DNA from: an uncultured Flavobacteriales bacterium
Lineage (GTDB): Bacteria; Bacteroidota; Bacteroidia; Flavobacteriales_F; PHOS-HE28
Assembly: GCA_937872175.1 (NCBI GenBank)
Contig: CALMPI010000009.1
Span: 124,001-188,000, forward strand
Length of the DNA: 64,000 nucleotides
Reading direction: 5' to 3'
The notes under the pieces were generated by a model. The model saw only the letters and a program-made list of their open reading frames with translations. It was not told the origin of the DNA and searched no databases. Positions 24,008-40,646 of the stretch are shown here, one piece after another; the first letter of the stretch is position 1; every line of letters starts with the position of its first letter. Both the position numbers and the translations under genes were made by a program.

Positions 24008-24085
24008 GGTGAATGGGAGTTGGTGAATGGCGAATGGTGAATGCCAGCTCTGCCGCCATTCACCAATGACCATTCGCCATTCACT
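24008..24085. repeat. Inverted pair of heptanucleotide arrays
   Basis: 24008-24043 reads as seven-base units (GGTGAAT, GGGAGTT, GGTGAAT, GGCGAAT, GGTGAAT). 24058-24085 reads ATTCACC, AATGACC, ATTCGCC, ATTCACT, the opposite orientation of the same unit. The arms share the 16-base inverted repeat GTGAATGGCGAATGGT and could fold together. The right arm contains the PIG-L stop codon. Confidence 0.85.
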
Positions 24086-26654
24086 TTGCATTTGTACTTC
24101 GCGGCGAGATCAGATTCGCGAACAGCCGATACGCGCCCGGCACACCCGCCGGCAACTGCCGGAAGAAGCTGATGCCCGTATAGATGAAGCGTCCTTTGCC
24201 ATGGTCGGTCGCGATCAGCGCACCTGTGAGCGCTTGTTCGCCGGGATCATTCCAAGCGATGAGGGGGGTGTACGTGTCACCGAAGTCTCCAGCGAAGTAG
24301 AGGCCGCGTTCCTGCACCCAGCCTTCGAAGTCGGCGGCGGTGATGGTGTTGGGTGTGGAGATCAGCGGGTGCTTGGGATCAAGGAAGGTGGGGGGGGCTT
24401 CCTCCACGGTGACACGACCGCGCGAGATGCTGAACGGCTTGGGGCCCAATGTGGCGGGATCGATCTGGAAATCGCTGGCACCGGAGAAGAAGCGTGGCGT
24501 GGTGTTGTACTGCACGATCAGCGTTCCACCTTCCTCCACGTACTGCAGCAGCTGCGGGTGCAGCTCCTTCATGCCCTTGGTGGCGTTGTAGGCGCGGATG
24601 CCGGTGACGATGGCGTCGTACTTCCGCAGCTCTTCCAGCTTGGCGGTTGAAGGCTCAATGAACTCGACAACCACACCGAGCTGCTCCATCGCCTGCGGCA
24701 CGTCATCTCCAGCGCCTTTCACATAGCCCACGCGTTTGGCGGTGGTGGTCACATCCAGCGGCACCAGCTTCACCTCGGCGGGCGTGTAGTACACTTGCGG
24801 TAGAATGTGCGGGTAGTCGATCTCGTGCAACGTGCGGTCGGCTTTTCCCTTGGGGCCGGTGAACGTGAACTTCACGGCACCGGACCTAGCGTTGTCCATC
24901 GGCATCAGCTGGAAGGTGAAGCGCTGCCGCTCGTTGCGCTTGGCGATGTTCACCAGCTTCAGGTCCTTGGTGGTGGCCCAGCCTTCTGGCAGCGTCACGT
25001 TGAGTTGACCGGTGAGGCTGTCGGTGAGTGCTTCCACTTCCACCGTGATGGTCTGTGGGCCGCCTGTGGCGATGAGCACATCGGTCTTCGGGATCACCGA
25101 GGCCACGGGCGTGACGTACACCGGGCGGATGCGCTCGCCGGCCACGCGGTCGACCCATTTGTAGTTGAGAGTCGAGTGTGCTAGGGCTCCCGTTCGGCGA
25201 TTAGGAGCACGAAACTCTGCATACAACCGAACAAAAGGGAAGTCTACCGGAAGGCCGATCAGTTGAACTGGTACATCGTGCAGGTTCCCACTTGCTTGTT
25301 TAAGCCAGTATGGTTCAGTCACGATTTGCTCTGGAGTCAATTTTCCACTCAAATTCATCGTGTTGACTATCGGACCTTGGTTAAGTCTGTTGTACGACAA
25401 CAGCGGAGCGATTCGAAGCTCAGATACTATGGCGCTATCAATCTTGCCTCGCCTTGGGTATAGCTGGAAGTTGAAAGGGATGGAGTCTATGGTCGTTACG
25501 AGTGCTTGGGTGCTAGTAGCTTCAGAAACCAATCCCATCGCGTATGCTATGATTGAACCTACTTCAGCTCGCTTGACTTTGTACCACGTTAACCATTCAC
25601 TTGGAACCACATCTCCTCCATAGGTTCGATCAAGAAAAGAAGCGATTTCCCATAGAGCAGGAACACTCTGGTCAGGATGAAGGGTATTGTACTTCAAGAT
25701 GAGGCTTGCTATCAATTCGCCTCCGTTTTTACCTTGCTTCACCCGCCCCCACGTCATATCGATCCCCTCAAAAATGTCCTTCCCCTTCGGTCGGTCGCCC
25801 TTTATCAGCTTCAGGTACTCCAGCGCTTCCCCGCGCGTTTCCGCCGCGCCAAAGCCCTGGCTCTTGTGCATGCTGCGGCTGCGCCCGGCGATCTCGGTAT
25901 AGCTCAGGCCCAGCAGCGGGTCGTAGCCGCCCACATCCACGCTGAACCAGTCGGGGTCGTTCTCGGCAATGGTGGCCAGGTCGCGGTTCCACCAGGTGCT
26001 GCCGTTGAAGAAGAGGCGGCGTGGCTGCCACACCTCCAGCCCTTGTTCCAAGTGCTCCGGAAAGGCCTTGGGGTCACCGGCCAGATCGAAGGCTTCCTCG
26101 GCGAGGATGGCGCTGGCCTCGTGGTGGCCGTGCCCCGCGCTTCGGTCGGGCGCGAAGCGGGTGATGATCACATCGGGCCGGAACATGCGGATCACACGCA
26201 CCACATCGCTCAACACTTCCTGCTTGCCCCACTTCTCGAAGCTTTCGGCGGCGTTCTTGCTGTAGCCGAAGTCCACTGCGCGGGTGAAGAACTGCTCCCC
26301 GCCATCGATGCGCCGCGCCTCCAGCAGTTCCTGCGTGCGGATGATGCCCAGCGCGTCGCCCAGCTCGGGGCCGATGAGGTTCTGTCCGCCATCGCCGCGC
26401 GTGAGGCTGAGGTTGCCGGTACGCACCTTCTTGCCGTTGGCCAGCCAGGCGATCAGGCGCGTGTTCTCGTCATCGGGGTGGGCCACGATGTAGAGCACGC
26501 TGCCCAGCACGTTGAGCTTCTGCATCTTGTGCAGGATCTCGGCGGCGTGGGGTTGTGCGGGGGGGCGTTGGGCAGAAAGCGGAAAGCTGAAAGCGGAAAG
26601 AAGAAAGAGGGTGACCGCGGCAAGGCGCAGTGCAGGGGACGAACGGAGGCGCAT
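24081..26654 (-). CDS. Secreted PIG-L (LmbE-like) deacetylase with C-terminal glutamine-amidotransferase-like domain
   Basis: 857 residues from ATG 26654. Signal peptide about 1-28. The PIG-L zinc motif AHPDDE (H59, D61, D62) and a later HGHHEAS provide metal ligands for N-deacetylation of GlcNAc-type substrates, as in the family. A beta-rich middle follows. The last ~200 residues (YDAIVTGIRAYN, YVEEGGTLIVQYNTT) resemble a ThuA/GATase1-like domain, probably non-enzymatic. DNA at about 25150-25790 is far lower in GC than the flanks, with no frame break. It precedes a symporter gene, so product uptake is a reasonable inference. A heptad repeat encodes residues 16-27. Confidence 0.88.
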   Translation of the reverse strand: MRLRSSPALRLAAVTLFLLSAFSFPLSAQRPPAQPHAAEILHKMQKLNVLGSVLYIVAHPDDENTRLIAWLANGKKVRTGNLSLTRGDGGQNLIGPELGDALGIIRTQELLEARRIDGGEQFFTRAVDFGYSKNAAESFEKWGKQEVLSDVVRVIRMFRPDVIITRFAPDRSAGHGHHEASAILAEEAFDLAGDPKAFPEHLEQGLEVWQPRRLFFNGSTWWNRDLATIAENDPDWFSVDVGGYDPLLGLSYTEIAGRSRSMHKSQGFGAAETRGEALEYLKLIKGDRPKGKDIFEGIDMTWGRVKQGKNGGELIASLILKYNTLHPDQSVPALWEIASFLDRTYGGDVVPSEWLTWYKVKRAEVGSIIAYAMGLVSEATSTQALVTTIDSIPFNFQLYPRRGKIDSAIVSELRIAPLLSYNRLNQGPIVNTMNLSGKLTPEQIVTEPYWLKQASGNLHDVPVQLIGLPVDFPFVRLYAEFRAPNRRTGALAHSTLNYKWVDRVAGERIRPVYVTPVASVIPKTDVLIATGGPQTITVEVEALTDSLTGQLNVTLPEGWATTKDLKLVNIAKRNERQRFTFQLMPMDNARSGAVKFTFTGPKGKADRTLHEIDYPHILPQVYYTPAEVKLVPLDVTTTAKRVGYVKGAGDDVPQAMEQLGVVVEFIEPSTAKLEELRKYDAIVTGIRAYNATKGMKELHPQLLQYVEEGGTLIVQYNTTPRFFSGASDFQIDPATLGPKPFSISRGRVTVEEAPPTFLDPKHPLISTPNTITAADFEGWVQERGLYFAGDFGDTYTPLIAWNDPGEQALTGALIATDHGKGRFIYTGISFFRQLPAGVPGAYRLFANLISPRSTNAK
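26575..26609. repeat. Heptanucleotide array inside a signal-peptide coding region
   Basis: Five consecutive seven-base units: GAAAGCG, GAAAGCT, GAAAGCG, GAAAGAA, GAAAGAG. On the minus strand they encode residues 16-27 (LFLLSAFSFPLS) of the PIG-L protein's signal peptide. Confidence 0.85.
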
Positions 26655-39696: not shown

Positions 39697-39724
39697 CCAC
39701 CAGCTTCCAGCCGCCGGCTTCCAG
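39697..39724. repeat. Short degenerate heptad repeat
   Basis: Seven-base register CCACCAG, CTTCCAG, CCGCCGG, CTTCCAG in the gap between the NSS and nuclease genes. Weak, but it shares its period with three other arrays in the window. Confidence 0.5.
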
Positions 39725-40381: not shown

Positions 40382-40559
40382 CCTCTCCGTGCGGGGCCGT
40401 GAAGATAGGGAGGAGCAGCCAGTTGGTAATTCAGGAGCAGGCCGTGGGCCGTTCAACTCGCGGTGGGTCACTGATATTCCCGCGAGCGAGGTGTTCAGGG
40501 CGGCCACGGGATGTGCTGCTGTTCGCAATGGCGCACCACCTGCCGGCCCTCACCTACTT

Positions 40560-40622
40560 CCACCTGCCAACTGCCAACTGCCAACTGCGAACTGCCAACT
40601 GCCAACTGCCAACTGCGAACAG
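40560..40622. repeat. Nine-unit heptanucleotide tandem array
   Basis: Units: CCACCTG, CCAACTG three times, CGAACTG, CCAACTG three times, CGAACAG. Strict seven-base period over 63 bp, in the 265-bp gap between the nuclease and etfA. No ORF uses it. Confidence 0.93.
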
Positions 40623-40646
40623 CCTACTCCCCCCGACCCATCGACC

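Follow-up and report, generated by a model that had tools for sequence, protein, structure and literature searches.

Introduction

The window analysed here, a stretch of 64,000 nucleotides (G000:C9:124001-188000) from the 4.30 Mb genome of an uncultured Flavobacteriales bacterium (52 contigs, 66% GC), holds tandem repeats of seven bases at separate loci and with different units. Reports of heptamer repeats go back decades and come from cyanobacteria, Bacteroidetes, Xanthomonas, and sulfur bacteria. The (CCAACTG)n array of the window raises the question of why units of unrelated sequence should have the same period. An earlier note on this DNA had answered with a process that makes seven-base units rather than with the spread of an element.

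Seven-Base Arrays and Their Period

The note had listed four loci with a seven-base register, all in intergenic gaps. Tandem Repeats Finder (TRF) recovered the arrays of CCAACTG, of GGTGAAT with its inverse, and of GAAAGCG (Table 1), and the CTTCCAG locus is weak, since it lies below the TRF threshold and no array is called there at a score of 30. Not every array is intergenic: the GAAAGCG array sits within the N-terminal part of a predicted ORF at 24081-26654(-). The GGTGAAT locus consists of a left arm (GGTGAAT GGGAGTT GGTGAAT GGCGAAT GGTGAAT), a tip (CCAGCTCTGCCG), and a right arm (CC ATTCACC AATGACC ATTCGCC ATTCACT).

Table 1: Heptad arrays of the window and the genes for 23S rRNA-intervening sequence proteins (IVP, PF05635) of the same genome whose arms match them.
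Feature	Position	Strand	Remarks
(CCAACTG)n array	40556-40628	.	TRF score 104, 10.4 copies (about 10 heptads)
GGTGAAT and its complement	24008-24085	.	Complete gene-less hairpin element
GAAAGCG array	26572-26608	.	TRF; single arm
CTTCCAG trace	39697-39724	.	Two GCTTCCA heptads, 14 bases apart
CAGCCAGTTGG	40416-40426	.	Possible remnant of the opposite arm of the CCAACTG array
IVP gene with CCAACTG-unit arms	G000:C10:21478-21795		Matches window 40556-40628
IVP gene with GGTGAAT arms	G000:C43:22553-22876		Matches window 24008-24085
IVP gene with GAAAGCG arms	G000:C39:39311-39604		Matches window 26572-26608
IVP gene with GCTTCCA arms	G000:C35:70254-70556		Matches window 39697-39724

In 836 kb of sampled stretches of the 4.30 Mb genome, with coding and non-coding DNA separated by gene calls from a simple hexamer model made for this analysis, the non-coding arrays numbered 10 at period 7 and 0, 2, 11, and 0 at periods 5, 6, 8, and 9, respectively. 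The expected excess of period 7 was observed over periods 5, 6, and 9 and not over period 8. Repeat segments in the coding DNA of the same sample had chiefly periods that are multiples of three, with some of period 7. The expected enrichment over shuffled sequence was borne out, with 12 period-7 segments at threshold in 440 kb of this genome and none in one dinucleotide shuffle. The period of seven is real and common to several different units. Samples of the genomes G004, G023, and G054 likewise had a non-coding excess of period 7, which was absent from samples of G009, G031, and G026. Arrays were found in highly contiguous assemblies too, those of G004 (4 contigs), G009 (1 contig), and G066 (9 contigs), and an assembly artefact is therefore unlikely.

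Paired Arms around a Small Gene

Many of the arrays are the paired arms of hairpins in which an identical heptad is inverted across a short tip (for example, at 24008-24085 of the window, L017:19676-19776, and L028:3500-3595), and the heptad differs from one hairpin locus to another. The GGTGAAT family has about 17 loci in this genome, several of which lie in frame within genes that we take for rsgA, dnaE, and others. Its variant heptads stand in an asymmetric order, GGYGAAT GGCGAAT GGTCAAT GGCGAAT GG in the left arm and CC ATTCACC ATTCACC AACTCCC ATTCRCC in the right arm, which is common to copies in both orientations and therefore points to descent by copying. The tips are often self-complementary and, except in one duplicated gene pair, specific to the locus, which suggests that the hairpin end was processed in each copy.

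Two long pairs of arrays, in this genome and in G004, flank small ORFs, and Pfam assigned both ORFs to PF05635. Matches to this family were found in 78 of 88 relatives and number 10 in the present genome, 9 of them over the cut-off. The arms of its IVP genes are built on GGCAGTT (C10), GGTGAAT (C43), GAAAGCG (C39), GGCGAGT (C9), GCTTCCA/GCCTCCA (C35), and others, and cover all four units of the earlier note. A heptad of IVP arms is used by 20 of the 24 dispersed arrays, where 1.9 were expected, the maximum in 2000 letter shuffles was 8, and a reversed control gave 0; the 24 arrays represent 11 distinct units, of which 7 were matched to IVP arms, and are not all independent. For each unit of the window, a different IVP copy has the matching arms, and this, together with the heptad order kept by the GGTGAAT family in both orientations, points to copying of several related elements, so that the preference for a unit-making process over the spread of elements was probably wrong.

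We consider it quite probable that the heptad arrays are arms, or remnants of arms, of small palindromic elements whose full form encloses a PF05635 gene. The (CCAACTG)n array is taken to be one arm of such an IVP-type hairpin element. Its opposite arm is a trace at best, which counts against the explanation by hairpin elements: CAGCCAGTTGG pairs with the array at an inverted-repeat score of 10.0 against 9.0 in shuffles, a marginal difference only. No PF05635 gene was found within the gene-less copies of the window.

Among the longer repeats of many bacteria, heptamers are the most frequent, and slippage was put forward as the cause (Mrazek 2007, as cited in PMC4679880 and PMC4692102). If the polymerase slipped preferentially by seven bases, arrays would arise anywhere and the hairpins and the IVP neighbours would be incidental; we regard this as an unlikely origin. 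The copy number does vary by sevens, an arm can be more uniform than its orthologue, and slippage very likely shapes arrays that already exist. However, it predicts neither inverted arms of the same heptad, nor an order of variant heptads common to both orientations, nor units in common with IVP arms, nor an IVP association across several phyla. Pure slippage was rejected on the shared heptad order and the IVP-arm matches.

Breadth of the IVP Association

With one IVP locus taken per relative, inverted arms were found at 19 of 26 loci and a period-7 array at 15 of 26, compared with 0/15 and 1/15, respectively, for the flanks of rsgA. Copies from the same genus gave 31/39 for inverted arms and 22/39 for period-7 arrays. 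As a control, 269 other small genes had inverted arms in 3 cases, period-7 arrays in 7, and both together in none. Of the three control genes with inverted arms, two overlap with genes for Y1 transposases, and the test therefore detects real elements.

These genes bring in another candidate explanation, in which Y1 (RAYT/IS200) transposases move REP/REPIN-like sequences and the IVP genes are passengers. The architecture is alike, an enzyme gene between palindromic repeats together with dispersed gene-less copies, and two Y1 genes of congeners were detected by the same inverted-repeat test. Nevertheless, the gene in the loop is a different one, the IVP gene, and the Y1 association of REPIN/RAYT systems was not seen here: G021 shows a heptad hairpin without any match to PF01797, whereas G009, with four such matches, is free of non-coding arrays over 200 kb. 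Y1/RAYT transposases were rejected as the mobiliser since they do not correlate with the heptads, and we find the passenger explanation very improbable. The Y1 transposase genes at G004:C2:170017-170397 and G040:C1:168222-168806 have strong flanking inverted repeats and are probably of the RAYT type. G009 has IVP genes with arms, yet no dispersed non-coding heptad array in its 200 kb sample, and the presence of an IVP gene alone is therefore not sufficient for dispersed arrays.

At 79 IVP loci from public genomes, the arrays flanking the gene comprised 51 of period 7, 2 of period 8, and 1 of period 9; periods of 4-6 and 10-12 were absent, and the outer flanks were free of period-7 arrays. The period of the arms was 7 in 31 of 35 cases and 8 in the other 4. 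The inverted-repeat test is conservative on these loci, since related species have heptads in common. About half of the public loci are without a clear period-7 array and some arms are built on 8 or 9 bases, both of which count against the proposed explanation. Units of nine or eight bases were seen in the arms at L406 and L407 (G066) and at L347, L340, and L334 (Flavobacterium). Part of the period-8 signal mentioned above arises because some IVP elements have such octad or nonad arms. The present genome also has (CACATGNN)n arrays of period 8, all non-coding (e.g., C9:96026-96080, C16:103355-103409, and C9:84426-84458), for which we found no inverted partner, so that they are not hairpins, and no link to any IVP gene.

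Heptad arms were seen at one IVP locus each of Chloroflexota and Nitrospirota. G055 and a public Bacteroidetes contig encode an identical IVP protein (L254 and L288), which puts the class that holds both G055 and the present genome in Bacteroidota. Plasmid matches to IVP came mostly from cyanobacteria, many of them heterocystous, and a heptad array or significant inverted arms were found at 14 of the 16 plasmid loci inspected (15 from cyanobacteria, 1 from Azospirillum). On two cyanobacterial plasmids (L369, L370) a CRISPR locus holds a heptad-armed IVP gene, flanked by cas6 and cas4.

Occupied and Empty Sites

An in-frame heptad hairpin lies at L022:19337-19418 (G000:C9:39337-39418) between conserved blocks of a gene that we take to be rsgA. 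Other families, outside the genus, are without an insert at this site, and in congeners it is taken by hairpins of other heptads (CAGTTGT, GTAGTTC/GGGCGTA) or is empty. The loop before the DTPG motif diverges strongly between species of the genus (orthologues L054-L081), because different heptad hairpins occupy it in frame. Further in-frame copies were found in a dnaE gene, two methylmalonyl-CoA mutase-like genes, and an adenylate-cyclase-like gene; these names, like that of rsgA, are our assignments from recognition of the protein sequences, the mutase likeness being judged from the flanking protein sequence. Across sister genomes, the sites inside genes hold the same heptad, another heptad, or nothing. 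The gap around 40556 is empty in four congeners and has hairpins of other heptads in two.

The heptad hairpins could also be regulatory or structural RNA elements of the host (terminators, translation control, or protein binding sites) kept by selection, as was proposed for the TAACTGA repeats. Many of them do lie between tandem or convergent genes, and complementarity of the arms itself predicts RNA hairpins. A conserved role does not fit with in-frame copies inside conserved genes, however, nor with gaps that in close relatives are empty or hold unrelated heptads, and no gene class is prominent among the host loci seen. We judge this explanation to be decidedly unlikely.

No movement was seen and no clean target duplication was found, and sites with and without an insert often differ in their flanks as well, outside the element itself, which counts against mobility. 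Independent random insertion into tolerant loops seems unlikely as the only cause of occupancy of the same site, because sister genomes so often hold other heptads at the sites tested; the occupancy may reflect either hot spots or replacement. In gaps that hold heptad hairpins elsewhere, congeners have another type of palindrome (GTCGACCCA...TGGGTCGAC) at L137, L138, L142, and L222.

A Possible Mechanism

In its full form, the palindromic element would have tandem heptads as one arm, the gene of the IVP protein (S23, a four-helix bundle) in the middle, and complementary heptads as the other arm, and the dispersed copies would have lost the gene and kept the two arms with a short variable tip between them. 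Each genome would hold several lineages of the element with different heptads, and because of this unrelated units would appear at one period. Judged from the sequences compared, the family looks widespread, selfish, and mobile. Its elements would move, and the IVP protein would recognise the heptad repeats of folded DNA or RNA and promote insertion, for which hairpins already present or permissive loops would often be the targets; slippage by sevens would then change the number of heptads, and repair of the hairpin tip could leave each copy with a tip of its own.

The IVP protein has no recognised nuclease, transposase, or polymerase domain, which counts against a role in mobility. IVP relatives were solved as 2gsc and 2rld with five chains each, a number compatible with a pentamer; 2gsc is the protein XCC0516, which by its name presumably comes from X. 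campestris. One IVP protein here also matches the bAvd family, an accessory protein of diversity-generating retroelements. More tentatively, and with some doubt, we suggest that IVP might be the mobility factor of a class of elements without transposase, an oligomer that reads the heptads in the folded hairpin and drives insertion into hairpins or loops, and that the cyanobacterial STRR, the TAACTGA repeats, the Xanthomonas heptamers, and the 23S rRNA intervening sequences (IVS) might all be members of this class.

Comparison with Known Systems

A near precedent in architecture is the IVS of Coxiella, which was termed a selfish element, has an S23 ORF and an inverted-repeat stem with (GACAGAT)n heptamers of strain-variable copy number in its 5' arm, and was suggested earlier to transpose (PMC4990558). 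Like the 23S rRNA IVS of Leptospira and Coxiella, the elements described here have terminal inverted repeats that form a stem and, in the gene-bearing copies, the PF05635 gene in the loop, and both occur in gene-less versions. Unlike the IVS, the copies studied here were not located in the 23S rRNA gene; they are scattered over intergenic gaps and the insides of protein genes, in many copies and with several heptad lineages per genome.

The heptanucleotide STRR of cyanobacteria were the correct comparison to draw: tandem heptads, mainly non-coding, inverted arms able to form stems, and sites where one heptad class has given way to another are found in both. The classical STRR units are of the CCCCAAT type, TTGGTCA, and CAACAGT. 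They are not matched by the units here; the GGTGAAT family does include, as a variant heptad, AATGACC, which is the complement of TTGGTCA in rotated form. In the Nostoc trnL intron the P6b stem is built on TDNGATT or NNTGAGT heptads, with replacement of the whole region (PMC4476775). That account, in the parts consulted, states no link to IVP, whereas the IVP genes of cyanobacterial plasmids have heptad arms here.

Arrays of TAACTGA occur in Beggiatoaceae, cyanobacteria, and five Bacteroidetes, with translational control proposed and no transfer mechanism found (MacGregor 2015, PMC4679880), and the view that such repeats had not been described for this group is to that extent incorrect. They are alike in being intergenic heptamer arrays of scattered phylogenetic distribution, and one family of the present genus uses TGACAAC/TGATAAC, a close variant. 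Unlike the present work, with its several units, that paper deals with a single unit, and the word palindrome is absent from it. Palindromes in frame inside ORFs were found here. The Rickettsia palindromic elements are likewise inserted in frame within protein genes; to our knowledge, they have neither heptad structure nor an IVP gene. The GGGNATC repeats of Xanthomonas and Nostoc, of which the G-quadruplex was the focus (Rehm 2015, PMC4692102), are also heptameric, intergenic, and paired, and can form inverted repeats in Xanthomonas (PMC4692102). In a literature search that left subscription journals mostly outside its scope, no paper linked four-helix-bundle/S23 genes to heptamer or tandem repeats, and an earlier statement of the link is possible.

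Conclusions

The IVP association joins two puzzles, heptamer repeats without an agreed origin and a widespread protein without an established function. It suggests an origin for the repeats and a target for the IVP protein, both of which can be tested. The elements also sit in frame in conserved genes, where they alter protein loops between species.
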